A stretch of 64,000 bases of DNA. It comes from Beijerinckiaceae bacterium. GTDB taxonomy: Bacteria > Pseudomonadota > Alphaproteobacteria > Rhizobiales > Beijerinckiaceae. A program made the translations under genes and the position numbers. The stretch lies in the NCBI GenBank assembly GCA_024304885.1, contig JALJOM010000003.1, positions 1,832,110 to 1,896,109 of the forward strand, written 5' to 3'. Positions 1,129 to 64,000 of the stretch are shown here, in pieces. Position 1 is the first letter of the stretch. Each line of letters opens with the position of its first letter. Under the pieces are notes generated by a model. That model was given only the letters and a program-made list of their open reading frames with translations, was not told the DNA's origin and ran no database searches.

Positions 1129-2904
1129 CTCGGGGAGGCCGGCGACGCGCAGGCCCCTCGCCCATTTCTCGGCGTCCTCGGCGCGGCGGAGCGGGAGGAT
1201 CCTGTGGAGATTGGAGAGGCGCAGCCCGGGATCGAGCCGGCGCAACCGCTCCATGAGAGCCCCCGCCCTCTCGACGCGTCCGGCGAGCGCGTGGCTCGCC
1301 GCCGCGAATCGCGTGGCCGGCACGAAGTTCGGCTGCGCGCGATAAGACTTCTCCGCCCACGTCACGGACTCGTCGTAGCGGCCGGCGAAGAAATGGGCCG
1401 CCGCGAGAGCCGCATGCGCGGCATATTCGAGGGGATCGAGGGGGCTGAGCCTGAGCGCGGTCTCGAGATGCGCCACGGCGACATCGGGCGCGCCGAGGAA
1501 CGTCCGAAGCCAGCCGCTGAAGAGCCAGGCCGGTGCGTGATTCGGGTCGAGCCTCAGCGCCTTGTCGACGAGATCGGCGCCATCGTCGAGATATCCGCAA
1601 ACGGTGGCCAAGGCCATGCCGGACAAGGCCAAGGCCACGGCATCGTCCGATCCGAGCTCGGCCGCCCGTCGCGCGAGGCGCTCGCATTCGGCGACGTCCT
1701 CGGCGTCGAGGTGGAAACCGTTGGCCAGGTACAAGATGTAGCAGCCGGCGGCTCGAGCATGGGCGGCGGCGAATTCCGGATCGCCCTCGATCGCGAGCTT
1801 GTAGAAATGGAGCGCCTCGGCGATCGCCTCCTTGGTGTTGCGATGCACTCCGGCGACACCACGGAGGTAGAAGTCGTATGAATCGAGGCTCTCCGTCGGC
1901 TTGCGCCTGGCACGCTGGATTTCCGCCTGGAGCAGCTTCGGCGCGATCCGGCCGGCCACCCGCGCGGTGACCTCGTCCTGGAGATCGAAGATATGCTCGA
2001 GCGTGCCGTCGAAATAATCCGCCCAGAGATGCACGCCGGTGGCCGCGTCGATGAGCTGGCCGGTGATGCGCACCCGGTTTCCGGTCTTGCGCACGCTCCC
2101 TTCGAGCACATAACGGACGCCGAGCGCGCGGCCGACCTCCTTCACGTCGACGGCGCGCCCCTTGTAGGTGAAGCTCGAGTTGCGCGCGATCACGAAGAGC
2201 CAGCGGTTGCGGGCGAGCGCGGTGATGATGTCCTCGACGATCCCGTCGGCGAAATATTCCTGCTCCGGGTCCCCGCTCATGTTCTGGAACGGCAGCACAG
2301 CGATCGACGGCTTGTCCGGCAGCGCCGGCACCGGCTCGGCGCGAGACCGGGCGCGGCGTCCCGGACGGACGCGATAGACCGAGACGAGGCGGCTGCGGTT
2401 GCCGAGGCTCTCGACGCCGGCATCGTCGAAGGCGAGGTCGAGTGCGCTTTCGGCGTCCTCGCGGACCCGACCCGAGACGCAGATGCCGCCCGGCTCGGCG
2501 AAAGATTCGAGTCGTGCCGCGACATTCACGCCGTCGCCCGCGATGGTGTCGCCGTCGATGACGATGTCGCCGACGTTCACGCCGATGCGATATTGGATAC
2601 GCCGGTCCGGCGCGATCATGGCATTGCGCGCGCTCATGCCGTCCTGGACCTCGACCGCGCAGCGCAAGGCATCGACGGCGCTCGCGAACTCGGCGAGCAG
2701 CCCGTCCCCGGTCGTCTTGACGATCCGGCCGCGATGCTGCTCGATCTTCGGATCGACGAGGCTTCGCCGATGGGCCTCGATCTGCACCGCCGTGTCATCG
2801 TCGTCGGAAGTCGCGGAATCGCTGCAAGGCACGAGCCGGCCGACTCCCGCGACATCCGCCACGAGGATCGCCGTCAGCCGCCTCTCGATGCGTTCGGTCG
2901 TCAC
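1126..2904 (-). CDS. Class III nucleotide cyclase-like protein with TolB-like and TPR regions
   Basis: This 592-residue protein has an N-terminal class III cyclase domain (about 1-175; ILVADVAG, TTGDGLLAEF and IGVNVGDIVIDG visible), a TolB-N/CadC-like segment (about 195-320; SIAVLPFQNMSGDPEQ, LEGSVRKTGNRVRI) and about six C-terminal TPR-like helical pairs. Proteins of this layout are annotated as adenylate cyclase-TPR fusions, probably soluble. The GTG start at 2904 is preceded by AAGG and matches the paralogue at 868; an upstream ATG at 3024 would add 40 residues with no counterpart there. Next to the first Asp the usual F/Y-S pair is V-G and an acidic SDDDD insertion follows, so catalysis is uncertain. 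The TAG stop lies in the type A repeat. Confidence 0.85.
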   Translation of the reverse strand: MTTERIERRLTAILVADVAGVGRLVPCSDSATSDDDDTAVQIEAHRRSLVDPKIEQHRGRIVKTTGDGLLAEFASAVDALRCAVEVQDGMSARNAMIAPDRRIQYRIGVNVGDIVIDGDTIAGDGVNVAARLESFAEPGGICVSGRVREDAESALDLAFDDAGVESLGNRSRLVSVYRVRPGRRARSRAEPVPALPDKPSIAVLPFQNMSGDPEQEYFADGIVEDIITALARNRWLFVIARNSSFTYKGRAVDVKEVGRALGVRYVLEGSVRKTGNRVRITGQLIDAATGVHLWADYFDGTLEHIFDLQDEVTARVAGRIAPKLLQAEIQRARRKPTESLDSYDFYLRGVAGVHRNTKEAIAEALHFYKLAIEGDPEFAAAHARAAGCYILYLANGFHLDAEDVAECERLARRAAELGSDDAVALALSGMALATVCGYLDDGADLVDKALRLDPNHAPAWLFSGWLRTFLGAPDVAVAHLETALRLSPLDPLEYAAHAALAAAHFFAGRYDESVTWAEKSYRAQPNFVPATRFAAASHALAGRVERAGALMERLRRLDPGLRLSNLHRILPLRRAEDAEKWARGLRVAGLPE

Positions 2905-14708: not shown

Positions 14709-14777
14709 CGGATCGCCGAGGGGCAGCTGCTGGCGACGGCCCGTGACCCTTGCCCCGGCCAGGGTGCAACACCGCTG

Positions 14778-14848
14778 GATCACGATGACTTTGGAGCGAT
14801 TCGATCCAAAGTCATCGTGATCGAGTCCAAAAGTCTATCCTGCTCTAG
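14778..14848. repeat. Type B palindrome plus C' arm (composite element, truncated)
   Basis: Perfect 18-bp inverted arms (GATCACGATGACTTTGGA and its complement) flank a 9-nt centre, followed by TCCAAAAGTCTATCCTGCTCTAG, which matches the C' arm of the elements at 60473 and 63766. It lies between the convergent channel and toxin-like genes and ends in CTAG. Confidence 0.8.
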
Positions 14849-18604: not shown

Positions 18605-19189
18605 TCAGCTCTTGCGCATCATGCGGCGGATCACGGTCTCGAAGCCCATCTCCTCGTAGAGCGCGATCGCGCCCGCGTTGAATTCGTTGACGGCGACCTC
18701 GAGGCTCGCGATCCCATGCGCCTCTGCCCAGGCGAAGGCCTCCTCGAGCAAGGCCCGCGCGATGCCGCCGCGGCGCGCCTGCGGCCGGACGGCGAGCTTG
18801 TCGATCTCCACGAAGCGGCGCGCATAGCAGACGCTGCTCGCCGGAAGATCGCAGATCATCAGGACGACGAAGCCTTGGAGCCGCTCCGAACGCGCGTCCT
18901 GAGCGACGAGGATCGTCGTCGCATGGCTCCGGATCAGGCCGAGGACGATCGACCTCGAGCGCGGCGGCGCCGAAGGCCGGTCGAAGAGATCAGGTCGCGC
19001 GCGACGATGAAAAAAATCGAGCTCCTCGTAGAGCTCGCAAATCTGCTGGTAGTCTTGCTTCGTCGCCGGCCGGATCCGGACCGGCGGCTGCGTCGGATGC
19101 AGCGTGCCCGTCGGCTCGGCGGCGGCGCGCTCGGCCTCCCGGAGGCCCGGCCAGAGCCGGCCGAAAGCAAGGACAAGGCTTCGAATCAT
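18605..19189 (-). CDS. GNAT-family N-acetyltransferase
   Basis: The 194-residue protein has a GNAT fold: VRIRPATKQDYQQICELY at the first strand (about 37-54), motif A IDKLAVRPQARRGGIARALLEEA binding acetyl-CoA (R/Q-x-x-G-x-G/A type), and NEFNAGAIALYEEMGFE near the end. The substrate cannot be told. The ATG at 19189 has AGGAG 7 nt upstream but overlaps the start of the divergent flavodoxin-like gene by 2 nt; the GNAT fold itself begins about 36 residues later, so a shorter form is possible. Confidence 0.85.
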   Translation of the reverse strand: MIRSLVLAFGRLWPGLREAERAAAEPTGTLHPTQPPVRIRPATKQDYQQICELYEELDFFHRRARPDLFDRPSAPPRSRSIVLGLIRSHATTILVAQDARSERLQGFVVLMICDLPASSVCYARRFVEIDKLAVRPQARRGGIARALLEEAFAWAEAHGIASLEVAVNEFNAGAIALYEEMGFETVIRRMMRKS

Positions 19190-19880
19190 GCACGCGCTCC
19201 TCGTCGTCGCTCATCCGCTCGACGATTCCTTCACCAAGGCCGCGGCTCGGCGCATCGAGGCGACGCTCCTGCACCGCGACATCGAGGTCGATGTCCTCGA
19301 CCTCTATGCCGAAGGCTTCGACCCGTGCCTCACCGCGGCAGAACGACGGTCCTACTTCACCACGTCCTACGATTCGAGCGCCGTCGCTCCCTATGTCGAA
19401 AGGCTGCGACGGGCGGAGAAGCTCGTTCTCGTCTTCCCGCAATGGTGGTTCGGCGTCCCGGCCATCCTGAAAGGATTTTTCGACAGGGTCCTCGTTCCGG
19501 GCGTCGCTTTCGAGCAGCCGCCGAGAATGCCATCCGCATCTACCGGATCGGATGGCGATTCTCGCTCCTTGTTTCCTCGCATTTTCCCGACGAGATCCGG
19601 GTTCCGGCTCGCCGGAAAATGCTCCCGCGGCGGCATGCCGATCCCCCGCCTCGGCCGGATCGACGCGTTCACTGTGGTGAGCTCGACGGGCGCGCCCTGG
19701 TGGATCACCCGGCTCGCTATGGGCGATCCGGTCCGCCGCCAAATCGTGCGCGGGATCAAGCCTTTCGTCTGCCCGAAGGCGCGCTTTCGCATGCTCACCT
19801 TGCACGACATGGATCATATGAAGGAGGCGCGGGCCCGCGCCTTCCTCGACGGTCTCGACAGAGCCTTCGAATCCTTCTGA
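19188..19880 (+). CDS. Flavodoxin-like NAD(P)H oxidoreductase (MdaB/KefF type) with a repeat-derived insert
   Basis: The protein has the flavodoxin-2 fold of NAD(P)H:quinone oxidoreductases: MHALLVVAHPLDDSFTKAAA at the N terminus, LVLVFPQWWFGVPAILKGFFDRV for the FMN/substrate loop, and TGAPWWITRLAMGDPVRR in the second half. Between FEQPP and GGMPIPRLG lies a segment of about 35 residues (about 112-147), rich in Ser, Arg and Pro, that related proteins lack. At DNA level it matches a type A palindromic element (19523-19625). AAGG lies 9 nt before the ATG at 19188. Whether the insert is tolerated or inactivating is unknown. Confidence 0.82.
   Translation: MHALLVVAHPLDDSFTKAAARRIEATLLHRDIEVDVLDLYAEGFDPCLTAAERRSYFTTSYDSSAVAPYVERLRRAEKLVLVFPQWWFGVPAILKGFFDRVLVPGVAFEQPPRMPSASTGSDGDSRSLFPRIFPTRSGFRLAGKCSRGGMPIPRLGRIDAFTVVSSTGAPWWITRLAMGDPVRRQIVRGIKPFVCPKARFRMLTLHDMDHMKEARARAFLDGLDRAFESF
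19523..19625. repeat. Type A palindromic element inside a coding sequence
   Basis: The sequence repeats the type A layout: A1 hairpin GAGAATGCCATCCG / CGGATGGCGATTCTC around CATCTAC, the middle CTTGTTTCCTCGCATTTTC, then GATCCGGGTTCCGGCTCGCC and GGAAAATGCTCC. It keeps the reading frame open, adding about 34-35 codons to the flavodoxin-like gene, and lies where the family has a short loop. Confidence 0.7.
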
Positions 19881-20140: not shown

Positions 20141-20713
20141 ATGGAAGATGTTCTCAAAAAGCTCGTCGAAACGATCGAGAAGCTCTACGGCGCCCTGGCG
20201 CTCGGCGCCGCGGCGGCGGTCCTGCTGCTCCTGCTGCTCCACCACGGCGACCTCACCGGCGGCTATATCGGACCCTTCTTCACCTACCTTCATGTGATCT
20301 CGGGTGTCCTCTGGATCGGGCTGCTCTATTACTTCAATATAGTACAAATTCCCACGATGCCGAAGATTCCCGCCGAGCTGAAACCCGCGATCGGCAAGTA
20401 TATCGCTCCGGAAGCCCTGTTCTGGTTCCGCTGGTCCGCGGCCTCGACGGTCGTGACGGGCATCATCGTCTTCTTGAGCGGGTCGGCCGTCATGAACTGG
20501 ACGATCTTCCTCGGCGCGATCCTCGGCCTGATCATGGCCTATAATGTCTGGTTCATCATCTGGCCCAACCAGCAGATCGCGCTCGGGATGGTGTCCGCCG
20601 ACGATGCCGCCAAGGCCAAGGCCGCACGAACCGCGATGCTGACCTCGCGGACCAACTTCGTGCTCTCGATCCCGATGCTCTATTGCATGGTGACCGCCCG
20701 CTTGGTCGGCTGA
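20141..20713 (+). CDS. Membrane protein with PuuD-type (Urate_ox_N) domain
   Basis: The 190-residue protein has four membrane helices and matches the Urate_ox_N family pattern: HVISGVLWIGLLYYFN near residues 50-65, RWSAASTVVTGIIVFLSGS, IMAYNVWFIIWPNQQ and RTNFVLSIPMLYCMV. The family is the membrane part of urate hydroxylase PuuD, but stand-alone versions like this one lack the cytochrome c domain and no purine-catabolism genes are near, so the role is open. GGAGG lies 8 nt before the ATG. Confidence 0.8.
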   Translation: MEDVLKKLVETIEKLYGALALGAAAAVLLLLLLHHGDLTGGYIGPFFTYLHVISGVLWIGLLYYFNIVQIPTMPKIPAELKPAIGKYIAPEALFWFRWSAASTVVTGIIVFLSGSAVMNWTIFLGAILGLIMAYNVWFIIWPNQQIALGMVSADDAAKAKAARTAMLTSRTNFVLSIPMLYCMVTARLVG

Positions 20714-32924: not shown

Positions 32925-33140
32925 ATGAACAAGATGACGAAGACGACGGGACTGCGCGCGAAGCTGGTTTCGAGCTACGACAGCCGCTTCGAGCCGCTCG
33001 AAACGGCGGTGGGGCCGAGCAAGTCGATTCAAGCTCATCTCGGCGGCAAGCTGCGCAAGGTGTTCGCCCTGCCGACCACGGACAGCACGCCGGACCTCGT
33101 CCAACGTCTCCTCCGCGAGCTCGAGGGCAAGACCGACTAG
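32925..33140 (+). CDS. NepR-like small protein (possible anti-sigma factor)
   Basis: The 71-residue protein ends in IQAHLGGKLRKVFALPTTDS followed by TPDLVQRLLRELE. This resembles NepR, the anti-sigma factor of EcfG, in which a helix (I..xLG.xLR.vy) is followed by P-D-x-x-x-x-L-L-x-x-L. NepR sequesters EcfG until phospho-PhyR binds it. No phyR or ecfG gene is adjacent, so this would be an orphan. An upstream EcfG-type promoter agrees with the idea. The start is uncertain (GTG 32856 with GGAG upstream is an alternative). The TAG stop is the edge of a type A repeat. Confidence 0.5.
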   Translation: MNKMTKTTGLRAKLVSSYDSRFEPLETAVGPSKSIQAHLGGKLRKVFALPTTDSTPDLVQRLLRELEGKTD

Positions 33141-33242
33141 AGCAAGTTCCAGCGAACCGGATACCGCTTCGCGTCGTAAAATTGCGACAACACAAGGGTG
33201 TAGAGCGGCTTTCCGATTCCGCTGGATCGGAAAGCGGCCCTA
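33138..33242. repeat. Type A palindromic element, reverse orientation
   Basis: It starts TAGAGCAAGTTCCAGCGAAC, continues through AAAATTGCGACAACACAAG, and ends in the A1 hairpin CTTTCCGATTCC / GGATCGGAAAG followed by CGGCCCTA. Its first bases are the stop codon of the NepR-like gene. Confidence 0.8.
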
Positions 33243-33958
33243 TTTCTTTGCTTTGTCGCATTGTCACGACGAGAACTCACGCAGCGATCCGGTAGGTCTG
33301 AAATGGTCTTCGAGACGACATCCGACGCGGGTCGATCCCCGTTCGGCGCCTGATCCTCGCGCGCCGACACCTCGGCCGCACCCGCTTCGACGCGCCCGGG
33401 AAGAGCGGGCCGTCGCCCCGCCCCCCGGATACACGAAGTCAAAGGACGAGAGCGATTTTCGATGCAATCGAATAGGAAAACAGTTCTACGTTACACTTTT
33501 GTAGCGCTTTCGCATCGATGTGATCATTCTAGTCATTGCTACAACGCTGCCGCGAAAGATCGCAGGCAACTCAATCTCGCCGTTGCGTGAGCCCGCCCGC
33601 CGAAAGGTCTGCGAACCAGGCGACACGGAATCCGGTCTACTTCGTCGACTTGTCTTTATATTGTCGCAATTTCGGATCGATATAGGCAGCGAAAGGCGAA
33701 CCATCGTCCACGTCGCCGGAAGACGGCCAGGCTCGCGCCGAGCACCAACCTGCACGGCGCCGATGGCTGCTGCGCTTCGTCTGGAAGCCGGTCGATCAGA
33801 GGACATAGCGTCGCACCTTCCGGCACGGCACGTGTGCCGCCATGTCCCGAGATCCAAGCGATAACTATTAGTTGTGCTTGTCCGGCAAGAAAGCTTTGGT
33901 ATAGCCGCTCGACCAACTCGGCCTGCGCCGATGTCAGCTCTCCAGGAGGACGCAGCTC
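33243..33958. other. Gene-free region with decayed repeats upstream of the two-propeller gene
   Basis: About 700 bp without a supported gene. It contains a degenerate type A copy at 33449-33533 (AGAGCGATTTTCGATGC, CGCTTTCGCATCGATG, ending near CTAG) and a fragment at 33628-33690 (CTTGTCTTTATATTGTCGCA). GC content is lower here than in the flanking genes. The promoter of the gene at 33959 should lie here. Confidence 0.6.
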
Positions 33959-39295: not shown

Positions 39296-39390
39296 AGGCC
39301 GCACATCCGGCTCGCCTACGCGAGGAGGGGCGCCGGATCGGCCAGGCGCGTGTGATCGTGTCCCGGCCTGCGCATCGCGTGACCGAGCTG

Positions 39391-39540
39391 GAGCGGGAAG
39401 AGGAAAAGTGGATAGCGGTGGTCGGGCGCAATCGAGTTTACGCAGATTGCATAAACTGATCTGCTTATCTCGCGCTAAGTCTTTAGAATCGATCACGTTC
39501 ATGAATTTGGATCGGTTCGATCCAAATTCATCGTGATCTA
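39391..39540. repeat. Composite C-D-C'-B palindromic element
   Basis: In order: GAGCGGGAAGAGGAAAAGTG (C), the D palindrome GTTTACGCAGATTGCATAAAC, TCTGCTTATCTCGCGCTAAG (C'), GAATCGATCACG, and the B hairpin ATGAATTTGGATCG / CGATCCAAATTCAT ending GATCTAG. It is the reverse-orientation equivalent of 63766-63919. Its last bases are the stop codon of the Fae-like gene. Confidence 0.85.
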
Positions 39541-60405: not shown

Positions 60406-60874
60406 CCTCCCGATCCGCTTTCCTTCCAGACCAGGACCGGCACGCCAGCCGAATCGTGCCGTCACGTCTCGCAGAGCGGGATGAAGAAAAGCGGACACCG
60501 ATTTTCTGCCCGCATCCCGCTCTGAACTTTTGGAATCGATCACGTTTCACGACCTTGGATCGATTCGATCCAAAGTCATCGTGTTCTAGCGGGCCAATTA
60601 CGCGTGCCGCACCTCGTGTTGCACTGCAAGACACGGGCGATCACCTCTGTATTCGCTCGTGAATGACCCAGAAGAATCTTGCGGAGCGAGGAAGAAGGCG
60701 CATATCCTGGCGACCGCCTGGGAAAAAGCTCAGGACTTGCCCTTGTCGCAACAAAGCCGGCACCCGGAGAGGGTCCGCGCGTACGTTCGCCTTCCCGCGA
60801 ATTCTATCGAATGCGGTAAGCGCCAGGCAATGCGACTGTGACAAGATAAAAGAACTCATCCGGGAGGCATCGAC
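60406..60874. other. Intergenic region downstream of cysK
   Basis: 469 bp without a supported gene. The repeat at 60473-60589 occupies the first part; the rest contains the promoter region of the small membrane protein at 60875, with no operator recognised. Confidence 0.45.
60473..60589. repeat. Composite C-C'-B element lacking module D
   Basis: AGAGCGGGATGAAGAAAAGC (C), CGCATCCCGCTCTGAAC (C'), TTTTGGAATCGATCACG, then the B hairpin CTTGGATCG / CGATCCAAAG and TCATCGTGTTCTAG. Module D, present at 39391 and 63766, is absent between C and C'. Confidence 0.85.
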
Positions 60875-61171
60875 ATGGGCGTTATGATCGTCGGAGGCAT
60901 ACTCTTCGGCACTGTTCTCGGCAGGTTCTTCAAGGTCTACATTCTCGTGCCCGCCAGCGCGCTTGCCGTCGTGCTGGTCCTGGCGAGCCCGGCTCCGCCG
61001 GAAGGGGGCTTGTGGTCTTCGATGCTCGAGATCGGCGTGCTCGTCACCAGCTTGCAAGTCGGCTACCTCGTCGGCCTCGTAGCCGGATTCGTGTTGCTTC
61101 AGGAAGGGAGCAGCAGGGCCTGGGGCCAGAGAGCGACGAGCAGCGTTTCACGCTCCTACCGCATTCGCTAG
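60875..61171 (+). CDS. Small membrane protein, 98 aa
   Basis: Two to three hydrophobic helices (about 3-15, 20-40, and 52-75) are followed by a basic Ser/Arg-rich tail of about 20 residues. GGGAGG lies 9 nt before the ATG. No family recognised. The stop codon TAG is the first base triplet of a type B element, and the last residues may therefore be shaped by the insertion. Confidence 0.65.
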   Translation: MGVMIVGGILFGTVLGRFFKVYILVPASALAVVLVLASPAPPEGGLWSSMLEIGVLVTSLQVGYLVGLVAGFVLLQEGSSRAWGQRATSSVSRSYRIR

Positions 61172-61219
61172 ATCATGATGACTTTGGATCGAATCGATCC
61201 AAAGTCATGAAACGTGATC
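61169..61219. repeat. Type B palindrome
   Basis: TAGATCATGATGACTTTGG, ATCGAATCGAT, CCAAAGTCATGAAACGTGATC: a near-perfect inverted repeat with arms of about 20 bp. It supplies the TAG of the preceding gene. Confidence 0.85.
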
Positions 61220-63632: not shown

Positions 63633-63768
63633 AGCGGATTTCCGATCCGATCGAATCGGAAACCCGCTCTACATTCTTGTCTTGTCGCAATTTCGCATCG
63701 ATGGCGATCTATCGAAACATCGAGATCGATATGCGAACCGGTGACCGCTTCGCTGGAAATTGGCCTAG
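63630..63768. repeat. Type A palindromic element, complete
   Basis: CTAGAGCGGATTTCCGATCC, GATCGAATCGGAAACCCGCTCT, CATTCTTGTCTTGTCGCAATT, GATCTATCGAAACATCGAG and CGAACCGGTGACCGCTTCG, ending GGAAATTGGCCTAG. It is the clearest A copy and shares the GATCTATCG block only with 960-1128. Confidence 0.85.
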
Positions 63769-63919
63769 ATCCCGATGACTTTGATTCGAGTCGATCCAAA
63801 GTCATGAAACGTGATCGATTCCAAAAGTTCAGAGCGGGATAGGCAGATAAGTTTACGCAATCTGCGTAAACTCGATTGCGCCGGAAAACCGCTGTACACC
63901 TTTCCTCATCCCGCTCTAG
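63766..63919. repeat. Composite B-C'-D-C palindromic element, complete
   Basis: It starts at the CTAG that ends the preceding A element: ATCCCGATGACTTTGATTCG, TCGATCCAAAGTCATGAAACG (B), GATTCCAAAAGTTCAGAGCG (C'), the D palindrome GTTTACGCAATCTGCGTAAAC, then CCTCATCCCGCTCTAG (C). Nothing else is seen up to base 64000. Confidence 0.85.
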
Positions 63920-64000
63920 CGCATTTCTCGTCTCGCCCGCGGCGGAAGCGCGGCACGGATCGCCTGCACCGACGCGAGGCGGGTCGGGCGCCGTATCTGC

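Follow-up and report, generated by a model that had tools for sequence, protein, structure and literature searches.

An in-frame palindromic repeat of CIR-like build in a quinone-reductase-like gene of a Beijerinckiaceae bacterium

Background

Within a stretch of 64,000 nucleotides from a Beijerinckiaceae bacterium (hereafter the window), an initial annotation pointed to a palindromic element lying in frame in a flavodoxin-like gene, which raises the question of whether the segment belongs to the enzyme or came in as a dispersed repeat and, if so, what became of the gene. The position and layout given there proved correct, with hairpin 1, linker and hairpin 2 at 19523-19624 (Table 1). We consider it very probable that a genome-wide repeat resembling the CIR class was inserted, once and on the host lineage, into a loop of a quinone-reductase-like gene that can still be read.

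Under the proposed mechanism, a copy of this non-autonomous palindromic repeat would have entered the gene of an FMN-dependent, quinone-reductase-like enzyme a single time; the insertion would fall in an enzyme loop and be tolerated at the surface, and the gene, still readable, would encode a protein enlarged by 35 residues. Three properties could have kept the gene readable, namely a repeat length of about 102 nt, several open frames in the repeat and a net insertion that is a multiple of three; to explain the survival of the gene, no more is needed than an open frame and a net length divisible by three.

Table 1. Positions of the element, its host gene and other copies within predicted genes (window coordinates, except for loci L198 and L165)
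Feature	Position	Strand	Evidence
CIR-like two-hairpin palindromic element, in frame; 35-codon net insertion with flanks	19523..19624	+	Leave-one-out profile; missing in 8 same-genus orthologues
Hairpin 1; 14 outer pairs kept, one bulged base	19523..19563	+	RNA folding; covariation analysis
GATTC (GANTC site), 3' arm of hairpin 1	19557..19561	+	Sequence
Linker joining both hairpins	19564..19578	+	Alignment A2
Hairpin 2, GCATTTTCC...GGAAAATGC; includes GGTTCCGGCTCGCC	19579..19622	+	Motif scan, RNA folding, alignment A2
Tryptic peptide from within the insert, MPSASTGSDGDSR (example, predicted)			
Host gene, Flavodoxin_2, 230 aa, FMN-dependent quinone-reductase-like (NQO1/KefF/MdaB clan)	19188..19880	+	Pfam, PDB profile matches, Foldseek, gene caller
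Next gene 3' of host gene, Urate_ox_N domain	20141..20713	+	Also 3' of insert-free orthologue in 3/8 relatives' loci
L198: TonB_C protein, repeat at residues 130-163, variable linker	copy 1453-1552, gene 1121-1939	minus	Flank scores 13.7, 13.9
L165: DUF3419 protein; domain ends at residue 422, residues 423-457 are repeat	1532-1635		

Results and discussion

The host gene and the element within it

The host protein matched Flavodoxin_2 (PF02525, E 3.2e-27) and FMN_red (PF03358, E 2.1e-12) in Pfam; the profile of its alignment matched 3lcm, NQO2 and NQO1 in the PDB, and Foldseek likewise placed 3lcm best, with NQO1 and NQO2 next. Its ORF was chosen on the right strand by a self-trained dicodon gene caller, used instead of a codon log-odds test that had picked the wrong strand for this gene. 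The reading frame is free of stops across the element, and the extra sequence occupies about residues 112-148, with RMPSASTGSDGDSRSLFPRIFPTRSGFRLAGKCS as the segment read from the repeat. The length of 103-105 bp proposed in the initial annotation holds as an in-frame net gain of 105 nt, but the element proper measures about 102 nt (GAG...CTC) and the remainder consists of flanks.

RNA folding of positions 19515-19635 gave -60.4 kcal/mol (z -4.4), and none of 200 shuffled sequences folded as well. An exact match to GGTTCCGGCTCGCC lies at 19600-19613 in hairpin 2, a motif that is uninformative alone, with 30 matches at up to three mismatches in the window against 25.7 expected. Searching the window against Rfam, we found no family reaching its gathering score. 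BLAST of positions 19500-19650 against the host genome returned at least 41 other places at E <= 1, with 40 of 148 candidates scored; 39 of the 41 stood at 4e-5 or better, the best at 7.1e-15. A covariance model built from 19 copies scored the element at 98.2 bits, a model that includes the in-gene copy, as do alignment A2 and the first profile. The profile was therefore rebuilt without that copy for its identification, and in the window search it matched positions 19524-19624 with an E value of 8.3e-20. The segment is thus a copy of the repeat, the furthest from the consensus among 163 copies at 64% identity, though the inclusion of the copy in the model may partly account for this rank.

Empty sites in orthologous genes

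A protein search over 99 genomes including the host gave a match in 41. Among the 14 other genomes of the genus, both halves of the protein were found in eight, only the second half in one (G002), and none in five, namely G001, G004, G007, G011 and G013, in which no match to the host protein was obtained at E <= 1e-10 (G013 is 77% complete). The nine sequences of the genus, from the host and the eight orthologues, form a single clade with a support of 100/100. Seven of the orthologous proteins are 195 aa long and one is 196 aa, compared with 230 aa in the host, so that the net gain is 35 codons against the seven and 34 against the eighth, in agreement with the 34-35 extra residues first counted. 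When the eight were aligned in two parts, the first part ended at residue 109-113 of the query and the second began at 145-152, leaving 0-21 nt between the two in the targets; the expectation that homologues are short at this place was thus borne out, and the orthologous sites are empty.

The element is missing from all eight same-genus orthologues with both halves and the segment from 19 further homologues of alignment A3, that is, from 27 of 27 aligned homologues; a conserved sequence at this position, sought as the observation that would place the segment in the enzyme family, was found in none of them. Altogether, 33 alignment columns are occupied by the host protein only. Loop length does vary slightly, with one orthologue carrying an additional codon and remote homologues occupying a few columns near the site, which is what a lineage-specific loop of the enzyme family, looking palindromic by chance, might also produce. 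Against such a loop stand the match to a profile that never contained this copy, the lack of the segment in every aligned homologue, and the presence of the same repeat at many other places, mostly between genes, and we regard this reading as having a negligible probability. A single gain on the host lineage would be the simplest history of the compared sequences.

Gene order around the site is partly shared. The downstream Urate_ox_N gene lies 3' of the orthologue in three of the eight loci (L035, L036 and L037) at 75-78% identity, and the upstream GNAT neighbour was not found at the corresponding place in the eight orthologous loci, which are short. One of the relatives, G005, has an empty site and also a repeat copy directly 3' of the stop codon of its orthologue (L036 about 2089-2200; G005:C1:597896-597997); this copy sits between the insert-free orthologue and the common downstream gene.

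The repeat family and its hairpins

The family consensus reads CTAGAGC-hairpin-linker-hairpin-GCTCTAG, with sharp edges at the terminal CTAG...CTAG; TA termini are present in the family and not in the in-gene copy. The model is 107 positions long, and 141 of 164 copies match it over 100-105 nt. Hairpin 1 contains GANTC in 121 of the 164 copies (25.4 in shuffles), most often at positions 20-23, and the in-gene copy departs from this usual position nearer the loop of hairpin 1, its GATTC lying in the 3' arm. Four of the six frames of the consensus are open, as are between two and six in each of the 164 copies.

Across 163 copies, changes on both sides of a pair numbered 79 in hairpin 1, compared with 36.0 in shuffles (maximum 46), and in the two parts of hairpin 2 they numbered 74 against 31.8 (maximum 39) and 81 against 50.9 (maximum 63), counts to which subfamilies contribute, since the shuffles leave relatedness in place. 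In the in-gene hairpin 1, six of the 14 kept outer pairs differ from the consensus on both sides, and the hairpin has no close match elsewhere in the host genome (the best other match covers 20 nt, E 0.03). This copy may stem from a subfamily since lost, or its two arms may have changed together. Template-switch correction of quasi-palindromes would change both arms together.

Copies are abundant in the host genome. The covariance model identified at least 150 full-length copies, all of the 150 scored from 4243 first-look candidates being matches, the weakest at 1.6e-12. Ten 20-kb stretches taken at round coordinates held 18 non-overlapping matches at E <= 0.001, a density that would correspond to about 340 copies in 3.8 Mb. 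Within the genus the repeat is amplified in three species, with at least 150 copies in the host, 124 in G005 and 95 in G007, and the other 12 genomes have 0-12. In a class-wide draw, the model was found in six of 142 genomes including the host, with 27 candidates scored per genome under stricter filters. Several copies lie close together or are compounded: L104 holds a head-to-tail run of three copies, repeating about every 102 nt, at 1527-1833 (G000:C3:2351725-2352034), further pairs lie at C3:610824-611032 and C3:1134402-1134611, and window positions 33137-33311 form a mosaic in which a full minus-strand element overlaps part of a plus-strand one.

Further afield, BLAST with the consensus matched plasmids of Bradyrhizobium, Methylobacterium, Xanthobacter and Asticcacaulis over 98-100% of its length, and the plasmid copy of Asticcacaulis (Caulobacteraceae) shares 75.7% identity with the typed consensus over 99%. 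With relatives as queries, partial matches covering 45-82% of the query were obtained in Sinorhizobium, Bosea and Martelella, among them a partial relative on a Sinorhizobium fredii replicon at 63% of the query. The best places in the named replicons overlap no annotated gene except in Xanthobacter, in which a few bases are shared with the end of a gene. Three of the named copies were inspected; all have GAATC in hairpin 1, and their arms differ between species.

Copies within genes are rare

Most copies lie between genes. We sampled 190 host copies from the surroundings of the 150 matches, from fifteen 20-kb stretches and from the window, defining a copy as a profile score of at least 45 over at least 60 positions in the fetched host DNA, with genes taken from the self-trained caller; because much of the sampling was around scored matches, diverged copies, intragenic ones included, are under-counted. 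Of these, 174 were intergenic, nine touched a gene by less than 30 nt, three by at least 30 nt, and four lay wholly within a predicted gene. At a coding fraction of 0.82 (from 244 of 264 kb, one copy-free 20-kb stretch being left out), about 156 of the 190 would be expected within genes at random. The frequency obtained is therefore about 2% of sampled copies within predicted genes against about 80% at random, a depletion suggesting that insertions of this kind are for the most part either avoided or lost afterwards. With the gene caller trained on the host and applied unchanged, none of 31 copies in G005 and none of 32 in G007 was inside a gene (30 loci fetched from each). Outside genes, the copies cluster at gene ends, with 77 of 175 stop sides within 30 nt compared with 26 of 181 start sides. 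Between gene pairs of the same direction in the fetched host loci, the repeat was antisense to transcription 73 times and along transcription 32 times.

Only two of the four copies within predicted genes are internal, those in the flavodoxin gene and in a TonB linker (Table 1). The latter, in L198, directly precedes the TonB_C part conserved among orthologues, and a clean empty site was not obtained there because the linker itself varies among them. In L165 the DUF3419 domain stops where the repeat starts, and the C-terminus is made of the repeat and 11 further codons; no orthologue was found in the genus at E <= 1e-10, hence no empty site. The fourth, L204, is a weak case in which the element stands at the predicted N-terminus of a protein with no Pfam domain, and the true start may simply be further down. 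A larger set of about 20 copies inside ORFs, obtained with the codon log-odds coding test, was rejected: Pfam found domains in just four of 20 such ORFs, all 3' of the element, which places the element in a spurious 5' extension.

The flavodoxin insert follows a plus-strand frame that the consensus also has open (RALSDPTESESGSTFLFCRIFATRTGIRFAGKCS), and a minus-strand frame (consensus LEHFPANRIPVRVAKMRQ...) is read in the TonB, DUF3419 and L204 cases. A wider proposal holds that protein-coding palindromes in Alphaproteobacteria have a second, independent source in CIR-like repeats, their frames resembling ready-made linkers, with at least two frames in use (one in the flavodoxin loop, another in the TonB linker and the DUF3419 C-terminus), and their palindromes kept matched within coding sequence so that one stretch would be held both as hairpin and as peptide. 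We put this forward as speculative and, on the present cases, rather doubtful.

State of the gene and of the insert

The frame is kept through the insert, and the conserved residues 3' of it are intact; in all 17 columns that are invariant among 28 sequences, the host protein conforms. In the 83 codons after the insert, comparisons with the eight orthologues gave dN of 0.22-0.40 and dS of 0.82-1.69, values that perhaps cover mostly the time preceding the insertion. Coding scores are +45.6 and +23.6 for the two flanks and -8.9 for the insert, which is thus unlike host coding DNA, as would be expected of a formerly non-coding sequence; the score lends no support for a function. A structure prediction, as proposed in the initial annotation, was made using AlphaFold2 with 28 sequences and gave a mean pLDDT of 88.0, with blocks from 121 to 150 at 49-57 and without a sizeable helix or strand. 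The fold is thus predicted to be retained and the insert to be disordered, and the model suggests that the insert is probably a floppy, exposed surface loop. We infer that the protein is made and active, with a neutral or mild effect of the insert.

It might instead be supposed that the insertion inactivated the gene, which would now be a pseudogene that has so far acquired no stops. The tip branch of the host protein is the longest in its clade (0.28 vs 0.05-0.23), so relaxed constraint is possible, and the gene is dispensable in the genus, judging from the five genomes with no match and from G002 with its second half only. Yet the ORF is intact and its C-terminal half is in frame, and a copy so far from the consensus has neither a stop nor a frameshift, an argument against a very recent insertion unless the source copy had already diverged. 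On balance, we find inactivation unlikely, and continue with a readable gene that tolerates its insert.

Slightly less likely again is that the insert has been kept for a function, either as a loop near the substrate site that alters specificity or as an mRNA hairpin that tunes translation. By a manual count on the PDB-profile alignment, the insert begins three residues beyond the one that pairs with Tyr128 of NQO1. In that enzyme, Tyr126 and Tyr128 form part of the active-site lining. Hairpin 1 also keeps its 14 pairs in spite of the six that differ from the consensus on both sides. Covarying arms are, however, typical of the whole repeat family, as the hairpin 1 counts indicate, and the arms differ between the named species too, so that selection specific to this gene is unnecessary to explain them; the loop, moreover, is predicted to be disordered. 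The enzyme family concerned is easy to assay.

Relation to known repeats and mode of spread

Chen and Shapiro reportedly described CIR, the CcrM-associated intergenic repeats, in 2003 from Caulobacter and other Alphaproteobacteria. A 2007 review portrays CIR as elements of about 110 bp in which two long inverted repeats form two arms joined by a linker, with a GANTC site in or close to the terminal loop of one arm and TA at the termini; it adds, citing unpublished work, that no CIR sequence had been found inside a gene and that each of the six frames carries several stops (PMC2229807). The host repeat is alike in its length of about 107 bp, two stem-loops and linker, GANTC in hairpin 1 and TA ends, but differs from that account in that its copies are open in two to six frames and that four of 190 lie within predicted genes. 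By build the repeat fits the alphaproteobacterial CIR class, a naming based on build rather than on identity with CIR1-CIR4.

The parallel with Rickettsia palindromic elements (RPE) drawn in the initial annotation stands for behaviour, an in-frame palindrome of similar size within a conserved protein gene, but not for frequent insertion into genes. Nearly half of the RPE first reported lie in ORFs (PMC2229807, PMC10969869), whereas insertion into genes is rare for the host repeat (4/190, and 0/31 and 0/32 in G005 and G007). The element may thus be said, by analogy, to work like an RPE, a statement about behaviour and not about family membership. It adds an example from outside Rickettsia to a long-standing question: do palindromic inserts ride along harmlessly, or do they supply proteins with raw material?

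A further lead is RIME, to which the repeat might belong. PMC2573895 names RIME as Rhizobium-specific intergenic mosaic elements (Osteras 1995). Like these dispersed intergenic repeats of rhizobia, the host repeat is dispersed and mostly intergenic, and a partial relative occurs in Sinorhizobium fredii. In a literature search at abstract level, with few subscription journals, we found no report of a CIR or RIME element within a gene.

In-gene palindromes of other kinds have been reported. ERIC/RU-1, RU-2 and the 107-bp Correia element are small non-autonomous repeats with open frames and in-frame gene fusions (PMC2229807, PMC2759123), and each is described as one stem-loop formed from both ends (PMC2229807), unlike the host repeat with its two arms and linker. 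REPs inside ORFs are read as amino acids in genes of several species; they are 20-40 bp long, tied to RAYT transposases and mostly near gene 3' ends (PMC3733652). The host repeat resembles them in being a palindrome read in a gene, with copies preferentially near gene 3' ends, and differs in its length of about 107 bp. In the sources compared, protein-coding palindromes were already known (RPE, ERIC/RU, Correia, REPs), and what is new is one from a class said not to be intragenic. The remark that no parallel was widely described in Rhizobiales is accordingly fair for the CIR class, but in-gene palindromes are documented in other bacteria. The present case, whose empty site is clean, indicates that repeats from a class regarded as intergenic are able to insert into the gene of a conserved enzyme and leave a frame that runs through the insert.

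Among the 163 copies there was no clear target-site duplication, the best excess being 29 against 16.4 expected, for 2-mers. We think it very improbable that the repeat belongs to the REP type and owes its movement to a RAYT (Y1) transposase. Hairpin 1 of the consensus does start with GTAGAGC on the minus strand, like GTAG-tagged REPs, the preference for gene 3' ends is shared with REPs (PMC3733652), and G007, one of the three repeat-rich genomes, has a Y1_Tnp match. PF01797, however, has no match at E <= 1e-5 in the host (G000) or in G005, the two genomes richest in copies, and G001 and G004 do have it with only one and four copies. Loss of a RAYT after amplification is possible.

The window also contains a second dispersed palindrome family, GATGACTTTGGATCGATTCGATCCAAAGTCAT-like and distinct from the element studied here, at 14775-14826, 60539-60590, 61168-61219 and 63765-63816. 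More dispersed inverted repeats pair 39387-39499 with 63808-63920, and 60473-60506 with 63884-63917.
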